This document shows, piece after piece, positions 29,888 through 36,045 of a stretch of DNA of 64,000 nucleotides. This DNA comes from Actinomycetota bacterium (GTDB lineage: Bacteria > Actinomycetota > CADDZG01 > WHSQ01): contig JAUJNI010000002.1 of assembly GCA_030446465.1 (NCBI GenBank), positions 41,143 through 105,142 of the forward strand, given 5' to 3'. Both the position numbers and the translations under genes were made by a program. The notes beneath the pieces are model-generated. The model was not told the DNA's origin. It did not search any database and saw nothing but the letters and a program-made list of their open reading frames with translations. How positions within the stretch are numbered: the stretch's first letter is position 1; every line of letters begins with the position of its first letter.

Positions 29888-31272
29888 CTATGCAGGCTCG
29901 AAGTGGATCAATACCGGGCCGATCTCCGGACGGATTGCATGGAGGGCGCTCTCTATGCGCTCGGAGGCCTCGTGTATGCGGGCCAGCGCCAGGTTCCCCC
30001 GGCCCCCGACGTGAGCGACTATGGAGAGCTCTCCGCCCGCTTCTGTGACCAGGACCTCGTGGCAGTCGAGCACGTCTTCCTCTTGGAGGGCGATGCGGCG
30101 CACGGCATCGACAATGTCAGGTCGTCGCGAGGTGACGTCGTCCCCTGTGGTGGCCGGCCTCAGGGGTTCGATGTGGGTGTCGACGCGAACGTCGCCCCCC
30201 AGCTCCTGGGTCACAGCTCGCTCGATGCGATCCGAGAGATCGTGGGCGGCCCCCAGTGACGCCGACGGCTCCACCTTCGCGTGAAGGGTGACGTGAAGCC
30301 GCTCTTGCCCTTCTCGTTCGAAAAGGCGGACGAGGACGTTGTGAACCTCTCTGACTCCTTCCTGTCTGCTTGCGGCGGCCTGCGCTCTCTCCAACAGGTC
30401 GGCCGTCTCCGAGGTGGGCTCGACGTGGACGACCACATCGGCCCCCGGAGCAACACGAGCGATGGCGCGCTCGACGTTTTCTGCGATGTCGTGGGCTCGC
30501 TCGAGGGAAGCGGTTCGCCCTGCGGCGACGGTCACGTCGGCGAAGAGCTGGTCGTCGCTGCCTCGTACTCTGACGCGGCGAGCTTCCGTTACCCCTGCAG
30601 CCTCCGAGGCCGCGGCTTGGATGGCGCCCAACGAGACCTCAGGGGCCCTGTCCATCAACACGTCGACCGAGCGCTTACCTAACCTCCAGGCCGCGACCGC
30701 CACCGCGGCCGCCACCACCAAAGCGCCAATGGGATCGGCCCGGTCGAAGCCGGCGTTGACCAACAGGAGGCTCGCCAGAGCGACAACCGCCGTGCCGATG
30801 TCGAACGAGAAATTGAGCGCCCCCGCCCTCAGAGCTTCGGAGCTGGCGGCCCTTGCAGCAGCGGTGAGGTACCTCACCCGGATGACGTCGATCACTGCGG
30901 AGACGGCGAGCAAGCCAATCGCATAGGCAGGTGCGGCGACGGGCTCCGGTCGGCCCGCGAGGCGACCCGCCGCCTCGAACGCCACACCCCCACGACGACG
31001 GCCAGCAACAGGGTCTGGGTGAAGGCGACGAGGTTCTCGGCCTTTCTGTGACCATAGTGATGCTGCTCGTCGGCGGGCTTGCCCGCGACCCGGACGGCGA
31101 AGAAGACGAGGGCAAGGGCAACCAGGTCGAGGGCCGAATCCACCGCCTGCGAGAGAACCGCGAGGCTGTCGGTGCTTGCCCACGCGGCGACCTTGGCGAT
31201 GGTCAGGGCGAGCGTGATTGCCAGCGCAACCAGTGCCGCCCTCTCTGCTGGCCTGACTCTCTGAGTGACCAT
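29888..31272 (-). pseudogene. Cation diffusion facilitator with three C-terminal repeats, frameshifted
   Basis: The N-terminal part (31272 to about 30990, starting M-V-T-Q-R-V-R-P) holds the first CDF helices with the metal-binding D-S-X3-D pattern as V-D-S-A-L-D and the H-H-Y-G-H-R-K-A-E motif. The remainder reads in another frame from about 30990 to 29888 and holds the rest of the membrane domain and a long cytosolic tail. The break is at the C-run 30987-30991; one missing base there would give V-V-V-G-V-V-A-F-E-A-A. The tail has three tandem repeats of about 75 residues, each ending in a V-x-H-x-E-P-like motif, whereas usual CDFs have one such dimerisation domain. The restored protein would be about 461 residues, exporting Zn, Mn or Fe. 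It diverges from the DtxR-family regulator. Confidence 0.8.
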
Positions 31273-31325
31273 TGCTTCGACAGCGTAGGCGGTCGGTCCC
31301 CACCCGCAGCGATCATGGCGCCCGA

Positions 31326-31339
31326 TTAGCTTTCGCTAA
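31326..31339. promoter_or_regulatory. Palindromic operator of the DtxR/MntR-type regulator
   Basis: TTAGC-TTTC-GCTAA is a perfect 5+4+5 inverted repeat in an AT-rich patch, 10 bases before the regulator ATG and 54 bases upstream of the divergent CDF start. DtxR/IdeR sites typically contain TTAG...CTAA half-sites. One protein bound here could control both the metal exporter and the importer operon. Confidence 0.6.
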
Positions 31340-31348
31340 AATAAAAGC

Positions 31349-32029
31349 ATGCCACGCCAAACCTCTCCGGCCGCTCAGGATTACCTCAAGGCGGTCTTCA
31401 TGCTTTCGACGGCTGAGAAAGGTGCGGAGACCGGACCAGCCGTCACGAACACGGCCATCGCGCAGCGTCTGTCGGTCTCGGCGGCCTCCGCGACGAACAT
31501 GCTGAAGAAGCTCGACGGGATGGGCCTGGTGACCTACACGCCCTATCGTGGCGCCCGCCTCACCGAACCCGGCCGGAAGATCGCCCTCGAGGTGATCCGT
31601 CACCACAGGTTGCTGGAGACCTATTTGGCCGAGGCCCTGGGTGTGCCGTGGGACGAGGTCCACGCCGAGGCCGAGATCCTCGAGCACGTCCTCTCAGAGG
31701 GTTTGGAAGAGCGCATCTCCGCTCTGCTGGGTGATCCCACTTCCGATCCCCACGGGCACCCCATACCGACCAGAGACCTCACCATGCCGGCTGCGTCGGC
31801 ACGTCTGCTGTGGGAGGCGGATGAAGGCGATCGCATCGCGGTCAACCGAGTGTCCGACGATGCCGCCGAGGTGCTGAGATACCTCGCCGGTGTCGGGATA
31901 CGGCCGGGCACAACTCTCGAGGTGGTCGGCCGAGGCCCGGTCGGGGGCCCACTGTTCGTTCGCCTTGTTGGCGGGGAAGAAGTGCACGCGTTGTCGAAAG
32001 AGCTCGCGGAGGCCGTATGGGTCGCCTGA
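31349..32029 (+). CDS. DtxR/MntR-family metal-dependent transcriptional regulator
   Basis: The 226-residue protein has an N-terminal winged helix (D-Y-L-K-A-V-F ... I-A-Q-R-L-S-V-S-A-A-S-A-T-N-M, L-T-E-P-G-R), a metal-binding/dimerisation domain (H-H-R-L-L-E-T-Y-L, E-A-E-I-L-E-H) with the family loop D-P-H-G-H-P-I-P, and a C-terminal FeoA/SH3-like domain. It should repress metal uptake when Mn or Fe is plentiful. A palindrome sits 10 bases before its ATG. Its stop overlaps the ATG of the binding-protein gene (TGATG), so it is the first gene of the importer operon. Confidence 0.9.
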   Translation: MPRQTSPAAQDYLKAVFMLSTAEKGAETGPAVTNTAIAQRLSVSAASATNMLKKLDGMGLVTYTPYRGARLTEPGRKIALEVIRHHRLLETYLAEALGVPWDEVHAEAEILEHVLSEGLEERISALLGDPTSDPHGHPIPTRDLTMPAASARLLWEADEGDRIAVNRVSDDAAEVLRYLAGVGIRPGTTLEVVGRGPVGGPLFVRLVGGEEVHALSKELAEAVWVA

Positions 32030-32967
32030 TGAAGCTCGTGGCCCGGGACAGCGTCGGCGGCAGTGCTCGCTTCCTGTGGTCCCGTGGCGCAGAGCGCGCC
32101 CGGCGCCGACGTCTCCGGTAGGAGGATCCGGGTCGTTGCGACGATCGGCATGATCACCGACGTCGTCGAGAACATCGGCGGAGAGCGGGTCGAAGTCGCC
32201 GGCTTGATGGGAGCCGGTATCGACCCTCACGTCTACAAGGCCAGCGAGGGAGACGTTGTCCGCCTCGCGGACGCCGCCATCGTCTTCTACAACGGTCTTC
32301 ACCTCGAAGCTGCGATGGGCGACGTCTTCGAGAAGGTTCAGGGGCGCGTGCAGACGGTTGCGGTGACCGACTACATCGACCGCTCGAGGTTGATGAGCCC
32401 GCCTGCCTTCGAAGGCAACTACGACCCGCACGTGTGGTTCGACGTCGCCATGTGGATACAGTCGGCCGAGCGCATCCGGGACGCGCTCATCGAGCTCGAT
32501 CCGAGCAGCGCGAGGCTGTATCGATCCACGGCCCGGGCTTACGTCGCGAAGCTCGAGGATCTCGATCGCTACGTGAGGGAGCAGGCAAGCCGGATCCCCG
32601 CCGACCAACGGGTCCTCATCACCGCGCACGACGCCTTCAAGTACTTCGGCCGGGCCTACGGATTCGAGGTCAGGGGCCTGCAGGGCATCAGCACCGCTGC
32701 GGAGGCCGGCACTGCCGACGTGGCGTCGCTGGCCGACTTCATCTTCGAACGACGGATACCCGCGGTGTTCGTTGAGACGTCGGTGCCCGAGCGGTTCATT
32801 GGAGCTCTCGAGGAGGCGGTCGAGGCCCGGGGTTCGACGTCGACATCGGCGGATCGCTCTTCTCCGACGCGATGGGTGACGAGGGCACCGAGGAAGGCAC
32901 CTATATAGGGATGGTGCGCCACAACATCGACACGATCGTCGCCGGCCTGGGGACCGAGACCCGGTGA
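32029..32967 (+). pseudogene. Metal ABC transporter substrate-binding lipoprotein (TroA/ZnuA-like), two frameshifts
   Basis: Three frames are needed. The first begins M-K-L-V-A at 32029 and, if one C is removed from 32042-32044, continues as a lipoprotein signal ending V-L-A-S-C. The main frame (from 32063) holds the TroA fold with metal-ligand histidines in D-P-H-V-Y, D-P-H-V-W-F-D and T-A-H-D-A-F. Near 32829-32832 one missing G moves the end into a third frame, which supplies G-G-S-L-F-S-D-A-M-G with the fourth ligand Asp and stops at 32965-32967. The ATG overlaps the regulator stop and the reconstructed stop overlaps the ATPase GTG, so coupling supports the reconstruction. Either the gene is decayed or the assembly has two homopolymer errors. 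Confidence 0.8.
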
Positions 32968-33765
32968 GGGACGGAGTCCGCGCCCTCGATCGGGACGGTG
33001 ACGTGCCCGCGATCGAGGTGATGGACCTCACGGTCGCCTATCGGGACAAGCCGGTGCTGTGGGACGTCGACATGAGCGTCCCTCGAGGTGTCCTCATGGC
33101 CGTGGTCGGTCCCAACGGTGCGGGAAAGACGACCCTCATCAAGGCGGTGCTTGACCTCGTTCACCCTGGCGGCGGGACAGGTCCTGATTCACGGTCGCCC
33201 CTATGCCGAGCAGGAACGCCAGGTCGCCTACGTCCCGCAGAGGGGAAGCGTCGACTGGGACTTCCCGACCACCGTGCTGGACGTCGTGATGATGGGTCGC
33301 TACGGGACCATCGGCTGGATGAGGAGACCGGGGGGCAAGGAGCGCGCCCTTGCCCTCGAGGCCTTGGCCAAGGTGGGGATGCAGGCTTACGCCGACCGCC
33401 AGATCAGCCAGCTCTCCGGGGGCCAGCAGCAGAGGGTCTTTGTGGCCCGCTCTCTCGTGCAGGACGCAAGCGTGTTCTTGATGGACGAGCCGTTCCAGGG
33501 CGTCGATGCCACGACCGAGAGAGCCATCGTGCTGCTGCTTCAAGACCTGCGCGCCTCCGGCAAGACCGTGGTGGTCGTGCACCACGACCTTCAGACGGTC
33601 GCCGACTACTTCGACTGGGTCACCTTGCTAAACGTCCGCCGCATCGCAAGCGGGCCGGTCCACGAGGTCTTCACCGAGGAGAACGTGCGGCTTGCGTACG
33701 GGGGCCGGGTTGCGTGGCTCAAGACGGAGCCCGCCGCAACGACCGGCTCGACGACGGCTCGCTGA
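32964..33765 (+). pseudogene. Metal ABC transporter ATPase (TroB/ZnuC-like), frameshifted
   Basis: The GTG at 32964 overlaps the reconstructed binding-protein stop. The first frame carries Walker [10 protein letters not shown] and ends at D-L-V-H-P. One extra G at 33168-33169 shifts the rest, which carries the Q-loop [12 protein letters not shown], signature L-S-G-G-Q-Q-Q-R, Walker B V-F-L-M-D-E-P and the switch H-H-D. V-D-W-D-F-P after the Q-loop is typical of Mn/Zn/Fe-specific ATPases. Restored length is about 266 residues. It powers the two downstream permeases. Confidence 0.85.
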
Positions 33766-33778
33766 GGGCCGGTCGTTC

Positions 33779-34939
33779 ATGCTCACCATCTTCTCTGACT
33801 ACACGCTTCGAACGGTCGCCCTCGGCGCGGGCGCCCTCGGGATCGTAAGCGGGGTGCTCGGTTCCTTTGCCGTGCTGCGCAAGCAGAGCCTTCTTGGGGA
33901 CGCCATCTCCCATGCCGCGCTGCCCGGAGTGGTGATCGGATTTCTCATCGGCGGCAAGTCCCCACTTGCGCTTCTCATCGGGGCCGCGGGGGCCGGGTGG
34001 CTCGGCACGCTGGTAGTGCGCTCGATCGTTCGCACGACAAGGATCAAGGACGATGGGGCTCTCGGTCTCGTGCTCTCGGTGTTCTTCGGGATCGGCCTGA
34101 TGCTGCTCACATTCGTGCAGCGCCAGCCGGATGCGAGCCAGGCCGGGCTCGATACGTTTCTGTTCGGCCAGGCAGCCGCACTCGTGCGCAGCGACGTGGT
34201 GACGATCGCGCTGCTCGGCGCTGTCGCCATCGCGACCGTCGCGGTGTTCTGGAAGGAGTTCAAGCTCCTTAGCTTCGACCCGGAATTCGGCACGACCCTG
34301 GGACTCCCGATGGGGCGCATCGACGTTCTGTTGACGACCTTGCTCGTCATCGCAATCGTCATCGGGCTCCAGACCGTGGGGGTGGTGCTCATGAGCGCCA
34401 TGGTCGTTGCTCCCGGCGCGGCAGCGCGCCAGTGGACGAACCGGCTCGGGGTCATGGTGCCGTTGTCCGCGCTGTTCGGAGCGACGGCGGGGGTGAGCGG
34501 CGCAGTGATAAGCAGTCAAGAAGCGCAGCTTCCGACCGGCCCCATGATCGTGCTCTCGGCAAGCGTGCTGGTGCTGGTCTCGTTGTCGCTCGCGCCGGGG
34601 AGGGGTCTGTTGTGGGAGTTGTGGCGCCGCAGGAAGAACCGGAAGCGCCTGAGCGTCGACGCGGTCCTCGCAGACCTCTACGCCCTCGACCTCCAGCACG
34701 AGGACGAGCATCCGCACTCCGTGGCCGCTCTGAACGCCATGAGCGCGGAGCGCGATGGAGTCGGCGAGGAGCTCAAGCAGCTGGAGGATCGAGGCTGGGC
34801 AAGCCAGGCGGCGGAAGAGCAATGGGTGTTGACGGATGCAGGCAGGGCCGAGGCACGCCTCAGGTCGCGCTCTGCCTCCATGCCCGGTGACGGCCGCGCA
34901 TCCGAGGAGGCTGACGGCAGGCTGGGGGCGGCGCCATGA
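33779..34939 (+). CDS. Metal ABC transporter permease with C-terminal winged-helix-like domain (TroC-like)
   Basis: The 386-residue protein has an ABC-3 permease domain of about eight transmembrane helices (residues 1-285) with the family segment R-K-Q-S-L-L-G-D-A-I-S-H-A. It is followed by a charged hinge (R-R-R-K-N-R-K-R) and about 90 cytosolic residues. The tail shows a winged-helix pattern: V-L-A-D-L-Y-A-L, a helix-turn-helix region, L-K-Q-L-E-D-R-G-W and W-V-L-T-D-A-G-R-A-E-A. This layout recalls chlamydial YtgCR, in which a permease is fused to a DtxR-like repressor. Its stop overlaps the next permease start (ATGA). Confidence 0.85.
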   Translation: MLTIFSDYTLRTVALGAGALGIVSGVLGSFAVLRKQSLLGDAISHAALPGVVIGFLIGGKSPLALLIGAAGAGWLGTLVVRSIVRTTRIKDDGALGLVLSVFFGIGLMLLTFVQRQPDASQAGLDTFLFGQAAALVRSDVVTIALLGAVAIATVAVFWKEFKLLSFDPEFGTTLGLPMGRIDVLLTTLLVIAIVIGLQTVGVVLMSAMVVAPGAAARQWTNRLGVMVPLSALFGATAGVSGAVISSQEAQLPTGPMIVLSASVLVLVSLSLAPGRGLLWELWRRRKNRKRLSVDAVLADLYALDLQHEDEHPHSVAALNAMSAERDGVGEELKQLEDRGWASQAAEEQWVLTDAGRAEARLRSRSASMPGDGRASEEADGRLGAAP

Positions 34940-36045
34940 CGCAGCCGCAGCTGGAGATCCAGGCGATCGCGGTGGTGACGGCGATCGCCTGCGCGCTTCC
35001 GGGCGTTTTCTTGGTATTGCGCCGGGTGGCATTGCTGAGCGACGCCATCAGTCACTCGATCTTGCTGGGCATAGTCCTCGCCTTCTTCGTCGCCGGAAGC
35101 GTCACCTCACCTCTGCTGATCGTCGGCGCTGCCGCCATGGGACTGATCACGGTGGTTCTCGTCCAAGCCCTCACCCGGACCAAGCTGGTAGCCAACGACG
35201 CCGCCATCGGCCTGGTCTTCCCCGCGCTGTTCAGCATCGCCGTCGTCCTGATAGCGCGCTACTCGGGCGATGTCCATCTCGACACCGATGTGGTTCTGCT
35301 CGGAGAGCTCGCGTTCGCTCCGTTTGAACGGCTCGTCATCGCGGGCTACGACATGGGTCCCCAGAGCCTCTATCTGATGGGCGGCATCCTGCTGTTGAAC
35401 TTTGCAGGGCTGCTGCTCTTCTACAAGGAGCTGAAGCTTGCAACCTTCGATGCAGCTCTGGCGGCCGCTCTTGGGTTCTCCCCGGCCCTCGTTCACTTCG
35501 GGCTCATGGGAATGGTCTCCGTAACTGCGGTCGGGGCGTTCGATGCCGTGGGGTCGATCCTGGTCGTGGCGTTGATGATCGCTCCTCCGGCCACCGCCTA
35601 TCTCCTCACCGACCGGCTGCCGAGCATGATCGCGGGGAGCGCCTTGATCGGTGCGGCCGCGGCCATCGGCGGCTACTGGCTGGCGCACCTCCTGGACGCC
35701 TCCATCGCAGGATCGATCGCCACGGTGTTGGGAGCGATGTTCGCGGTGGCGTTCGCCTTAGCTCCGCAACGAGGTCTGATTGCCGTTGCCAGGCGCCGCG
35801 GGCGCCAGCGATGGGAGTTTGCCCGCACGATGCTCGCCATCCACCTCCTCAATCACGAGGGCCTGCCCGAGGCCGCGGACGAAAACAGGGTCGAGCACCT
35901 CAAAGACGGGCTTGGCTGGGACGGGGACTTCACGGCCGAGGTGGTCAAGCAGGCCAAGCGCAATGGGTTGCTGTGGGAGGGGGAGGGGGCGTTGATCCTG
36001 ACCGACAGCGGGCGGCGGTTGGCCGAGAGTGCGGTCGCGGCCTGA
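34936..36045 (+). CDS. Metal ABC transporter permease with C-terminal winged-helix-like domain (TroD-like)
   Basis: The 369-residue protein has a second ABC-3 permease domain (residues 1-275; L-R-R-V-A-L-L-S-D-A-I-S-H-S matches the first permease) followed by R-R-R-G-R-Q-R-W and about 85 cytosolic residues. The tail again looks like a winged helix: M-L-A-I-H-L-L-N-H-E-G, then V-V-K-Q-A-K-R-N-G-L-L and L-I-L-T-D-S-G-R-R-L-A-E-S. The pair forms the heterodimeric channel for Mn, Zn or Fe. The ATG overlaps the upstream stop, so the two are made together. Confidence 0.85.
   Translation: MTQPQLEIQAIAVVTAIACALPGVFLVLRRVALLSDAISHSILLGIVLAFFVAGSVTSPLLIVGAAAMGLITVVLVQALTRTKLVANDAAIGLVFPALFSIAVVLIARYSGDVHLDTDVVLLGELAFAPFERLVIAGYDMGPQSLYLMGGILLLNFAGLLLFYKELKLATFDAALAAALGFSPALVHFGLMGMVSVTAVGAFDAVGSILVVALMIAPPATAYLLTDRLPSMIAGSALIGAAAAIGGYWLAHLLDASIAGSIATVLGAMFAVAFALAPQRGLIAVARRRGRQRWEFARTMLAIHLLNHEGLPEAADENRVEHLKDGLGWDGDFTAEVVKQAKRNGLLWEGEGALILTDSGRRLAESAVAA

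Follow-up and report, generated by a model that had tools for sequence, protein, structure and literature searches.

Both permeases of a manganese-type ABC importer encoded in the analysed window (a 64,000-nucleotide stretch of an Actinomycetota genome) carry an extra C-terminal domain of ~85-105 residues (~90-110 residues in all follow the permease domain). Its descent from the DNA-binding domain found in DtxR/MntR-type metalloregulators is well supported. As best read from their sequences, these tails appear to be transcription factors no longer, their DNA-reading surface having decayed. We give roughly even chances to the reading in which they are cytosolic regulatory domains of repressor origin that stay attached to the channel and most likely act as a metal-sensing brake (trans-inhibition).

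The operon comprises mntR, the genes of a solute-binding protein and an ABC ATPase, and a pair of ABC-3 permease genes that overlap (Table 1). The PF00950 model (curated cut-off 20.1) matched residues 8-270 of the MntC-like protein (E 1.2e-67, 228.6 bits) and residues 11-274 of the MntD-like one (E 6.5e-42, 144.3 bits), and the permease domain of both stops near residue 274. As expected of an importer operon, PF00005 and PF01297 genes lie upstream of the permeases; each shows one frame switch relative to intact homologues, attributable to sequencing indels or gene decay. On the minus strand, divergent from mntR, a cation-efflux (CDF-like) gene (29888-31303) also seems split into two frames (near 30900), so that frame breaks are perhaps frequent in this part of the assembly. 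The original prediction had the operon begin with a separate DtxR-family regulator, and the domain composition of this protein bears it out. The top NCBIfam match of this regulator is the manganese-dependent MntR model; since the match falls under that model's cut-off, we grade manganese as the likely metal of the importer.

Table 1. Features of the importer locus, in window positions (AF2, AlphaFold2)
Feature	Position	Strand	Basis
Palindrome TTAGCtttcGCTAA, candidate MntR operator upstream of mntR	31326..31339		One of two exact TTAGCN4GCTAA copies in the genome
MntR/DtxR-family regulator, stand-alone, heading the operon	31349..32029	+	PF01325, PF02742 and PF04023 (FeoA), all above cut-off
Solute-binding protein, ZnuA/TroA type, frame broken near 32833	32051..32958	+	PF01297 (E 2e-68); tblastn of 6 homologues
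ABC ATPase, frame broken near 33169-33176	33000..33765	+	PF00005; tblastn of homologues
MntC-like ABC-3 permease, 386 aa, predicted C-terminal winged-helix tail	33779..34939	+	PF00950, AF2 model
MntC tail, residues 284-386 (predicted winged helix ~295-367; final 19 residues predicted disordered)	34628..34936	+	AF2/DSSP, DtxR register
MntC-tail histidines H307, H311, H313	34697..34717	+	Weighted conservation 0.89, 0.73, 0.95
MntD-like ABC-3 permease, 369 aa, predicted C-terminal winged-helix tail	34936..36045	+	PF00950, AF2 model
MntD tail, residues 283-369	35782..36042	+	AF2/DSSP; Foldseek to MntR/IdeR
MntD-tail putative His/Glu cluster H303, H307, E316, H321	35842..35898	+	Conservation in 57 tails
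MntD-tail helix 3, residues 330-342, predicted to correspond to the recognition helix of DtxR; variable at the DNA-contact positions	35923..35961	+	

Structure prediction, which the original prediction had itself named as a place where it could fail, gave a winged helix in both tails, and we regard this fold assignment (modelled by AlphaFold2 from 57 aligned homologues for MntD and 50 for MntC) as well supported. The predicted elements of the MntD tail (H281-307, H313-316, H319-326, H330-342, E346-349, E352-355, H357-368) and of the MntC tail (H277-305, H315-321, H329-337, E341-345, E348-351, H353-367) both follow the helix-helix-helix-strand-strand-helix order of winged helices. Block pLDDT ranged from 84 to 94 in the MntD tail. 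In the MntC tail it was 80-94 up to residue 360 and fell below 50 in the final 19 residues. The coordinates and motifs on which the layout had been proposed were recovered as claimed (VLADLYAL...EDRGW...LTDAGR in the first permease, MLAIHLL...KRNGLL...LTDSGR in the second). The basic hinge that had been placed behind each permease domain fared differently: the basic stretches are there (WRRRKNRKR and ARRRGRQRW, respectively), but the models put them within a continuous helix that runs from the last membrane helix into the tail, where its distal part forms helix 1 (residues 281-307 in MntD and 277-305 in MntC). Hence, no loose, cleavable linker is predicted.

The closest relatives of the tails are DtxR/MntR repressors, clearly so for the MntD tail and likely so for the MntC tail, and the DtxR-type layout originally proposed thus found agreement among AlphaFold2, Foldseek, profile and genome searches. 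Fold and nearest homology together make the case strong for MntD and moderate for MntC, both tails scoring under the PF01325 cut-off. When the tails were scanned with Pfam and NCBIfam, no helix-turn-helix family rose above its cut-off, and the scattered weak winged-helix matches were led by PF25213. In the Foldseek search with the MntD model, once the membrane-domain matches were set aside, 23 of the remaining 36 among the matches listed were MntR, DtxR or IdeR structures (many of them redundant; probability 1.00, most with rmsd 2.0-2.8), whereas the MntC model yielded membrane matches and merely weak winged-helix ones. When tail profiles were run against PDB sequences, DtxR, IdeR and MntR ranked first for MntD and near the top for MntC (alongside ribosomal eS10 and eS19), with E values of 0.012-0.05 that are by themselves merely suggestive. 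Profile-profile comparison with MntRs aligned both tails in register, with probabilities of 92 (MntC) and 83 (MntD).

The strongest test of ancestry was a six-frame search of whole actinobacterial genomes. In 396 of them, 41 places matched the profile of the MntD tail at E <= 0.001. Six of these were strong (E < 1e-29) and corresponded to MntD of the window and its near relatives; the 34 weaker matches that were retrieved comprised 11 MntD-type permeases, 19 stand-alone DtxR/MntR proteins and four others (three MarR-like, one IclR). With the MntC-tail profile, DtxR proteins accounted for 18 of the 26 non-permease matches that were classified, PadR-like ones coming next (PadR by sequence reading). 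Considering that the window's genome holds four DtxR-type proteins against 13 MarR_2 matches (partly identical proteins), the DtxR family was not numerically favoured in such searches. Against 40 DtxR-family proteins (a set partly selected through tail matches) the tail profiles scored on average 19 bits (50 MntC tails) and 17 bits (57 MntD tails), as opposed to a mean of ~0 bits for column-shuffled or reversed profiles on the same proteins; at the level of sequence profiles, the resemblance between tails and DtxR exceeds chance.

The tails are widespread, spanning ~14 phyla (Chloroflexota, Rhodothermota, Bacteroidota, Gemmatimonadota, Poribacteria, Zixiibacteriota, Armatimonadota, Acidobacteriota, Bacillota, Spirochaetota, Myxococcota, Planctomycetota, Margulisiibacteriota and Actinomycetota), with the caveat that many of the sampled loci come from metagenome-assembled genomes and some taxon labels may be wrong. 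Among 60 loci with both permeases, 47 had both tails, eight the MntD tail alone, one the MntC tail alone and four neither, a tailed fraction that is biased upward because most loci were recovered via peptides of the window's MntD, two of the six lying within the tail. The expectation that homologues would retain the tails thus held for the majority of paired loci and gave way in several lineages, which lost one or both. In the permease tree the MntC and MntD clades were filled with tails, lost here and there (9 label changes, compared with 36.6 when labels were shuffled), and tail-free ABC-3 families sat between the two clades (midpoint rooting); the other ABC-3 permeases were tail-free, except for three fused to MntR.

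What the tails have kept through this divergence is of ligand type. In 57 MntD tails (~14 phyla) H307, E316 and W328 were invariant, H303 was conserved in 95% and H325 in 90%, and Q291 fell within 90-95%; position 325, a His in those 90% of relatives, is Gly in the window's MntD. The window's MntC has all three of the histidines listed in Table 1, and in both tails the ligand-type residues lie where helix 1 ends and either ahead of helix 2 or within it. Both tails are cytosolic C-terminal accessory domains on a transporter subunit, here the membrane subunits. We reason that the His/Glu residues would bind the imported metal (Mn2+, perhaps Fe2+ or Zn2+) at high cytosolic levels, and that the metal-bound tails might then clamp on each other or on the ATPase and slow transport, a valve that would act atop the transcriptional control exerted by the separate MntR. 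Such a metal-responsive gate, the other option in the original prediction, most likely fits best, since the retained residues are ligand-type, the predicted junction between tail and channel is stiff, and there is precedent in MetNI and ModABC, where C-terminal cytosolic domains sense the substrate and stop the ABC importer (PMC10710835), although there the domains have other folds and sit on the ATPase subunits. The reading is weakened by three Bacillota MntC tails without the histidines, by Gly325 in the window's MntD, by the frame-broken ATPase and binding-protein genes, and by the fact that the invariant polar residues may be structural. More tentatively, we propose that a repressor winged helix was turned from reading DNA into a metal-sensing valve on both membrane subunits early in the importer's spread across ~14 phyla, the MntC and MntD tails possibly sharing an interface metal site that would close the transporter when cytosolic metal rises.

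In one related actinobacterial clade, 12 MntD tails (loci L005, L137-L145, L154 and L156) keep the winged-helix pattern and have lost the helix-1 His pair. Because an MntD tail without the cluster exists there, metal sensing by the tails is something that we infer, and the main rival explanation gains: the tails would be worth keeping even without the cluster if they served as interaction or stability domains that sense no metal, the winged helices docking on the ATPase or shielding the permease from membrane proteolysis. The model for such a role is FeoC, a winged-helix protein (PMC5519574) that binds FeoB and shields it from FtsH (PMC10710835), and the rigid helical connection predicted for the tails, together with the hydrophobic positions conserved on their surface, would fit docking. 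However, docking alone would not demand invariant His and Glu residues across ~14 phyla at a mean tail identity of 39%, and the Cys motif of FeoC (Cx2-7C) is absent from the tail alignments; we hold this explanation to be somewhat unlikely. The single MntC partner seen in the clade that lost the His pair (at L005) has no tail.

The original prediction further raised DNA binding after proteolysis, and in such a scheme the tail, cleaved off or membrane-held, would be a latent repressor for sites such as the palindrome in front of mntR. The tails are predicted DtxR-type winged helices, and chlamydial YtgCR is the precedent: YtgR keeps the DtxR metal-coordinating residues (PMC5599777), is cut from YtgC, binds DNA and represses its own operon (PMC5599777, PMC7755916). 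Behind the window's permeases, however, there is no complete DtxR-like repressor, the tails being winged helix only. No match to PF02742 (the Fe_dep_repr_C metal-binding/dimerisation domain) was found in either permease, the four PF02742 proteins of the genome lying elsewhere (one of them is the operon's MntR), and profile alignments indicated that the winged-helix metal ligand of the family (M10 in DtxR, D8 in MntR, D11 in the window's MntR) is not retained in the tails.

We then took the base-contact positions to be those of S37, P39 and Q43 in DtxR, and compared MntRs and tails at like divergence (mean identity 36% for MntRs, 34% and 39% for the tails). Entropies at the three positions were 1.8, 1.6 and 2.5 bits in MntRs, as against 2.8, 3.3 and 2.2 bits in MntD tails and 3.4, 2.5 and 3.2 bits in MntC tails; at the position of DtxR R47 they were 0.9 in MntRs and 3.4 and 3.3 in the two tails. 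Conserved DNA-contact positions were thus found in the recognition helix of neither tail, the entropies being near random. The net charge of the recognition helix was also considered as a criterion and set aside as not decisive (lower in tails than in MntRs, with overlapping ranges). Given the hypervariable contact positions, the missing dimerisation/metal domain, the predicted continuity of helix 1 and an operon that already has a complete MntR, we regard the latent-repressor reading as very improbable.

Complete permease-repressor fusions do occur in the same phylum. In two genomes (G020 and G028; loci L174 1328-2875 and L175 886-3168) a permease continues into an entire MntR that includes metal/dimer and FeoA domains, and a third fusion (G210, L171 3-1163) ends at a contig edge. 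The fusion junction matches that of the tails (AP.RG followed by basic residues). In G020 and G028 the metal/dimer domain is strong in Pfam (E 1e-22), the preceding winged helix has no match at E <= 0.01, and a separate MntR is present within a few kilobases; these two cases, too, point to metal sensing by the permease over DNA reading. That the tails are vestigial leftovers of such an ancient fusion, without present function, is the least probable reading of all: repeated tail loss on the permease tree and the shared junction would agree with it, but retention of both tails in most paired loci across great divergence, with invariant residues, would not.

YtgCR and the permease-repressor fusions, reported from 11 phyla (PMC5599777), are the architectural precedent for a DtxR-like winged helix at the C-terminus of an ABC-3 permease; the window's tails differ in being winged helix only, in occurring on both permeases and in having lost DNA-contact conservation. 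The TroABCDR system of Treponema has an operon of the same kind, in which the DtxR-like TroR is likewise a protein of its own, and by the lengths published in the accessible part of PMC2628430, TroD (366-367 aa) matches a tailed MntD in length, while TroC (298-304 aa), unlike the window's MntC, is too short for a tail; that part of the paper describes no extra domain in TroD. FeoC resembles the tails as a winged helix acting on a metal importer and not on DNA, but it is a small protein in its own right, bears a Cys motif and an Fe-S cluster, and works on an unrelated transporter. The best structural match of both permease models was PsaBC of Streptococcus pneumoniae (7KYO/7KYP), which has the same membrane fold in tail-free chains of 258-290 residues. 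Bacillus subtilis MntC presumably also has a long C-terminus. In the open-access literature we found no paper on winged-helix-only tails on both permeases, and the domain goes unrecognised by the Pfam and NCBIfam versions used. The control of manganese-type importers has been studied mainly as transcription; if the tails sense metal, they would provide a widespread protein-level brake on these importers and would clearly exemplify the recruitment of a DNA-binding fold to the control of a transporter.

The second exact TTAGCN4GCTAA copy in the genome was located near position 2066 of L172, where a multicopper-oxidase-like gene (L172 2054-3172) begins. An MntR regulon drawn from the count of such boxes was rejected, as two genomic sites are about what base composition leads one to expect (by our own estimate).
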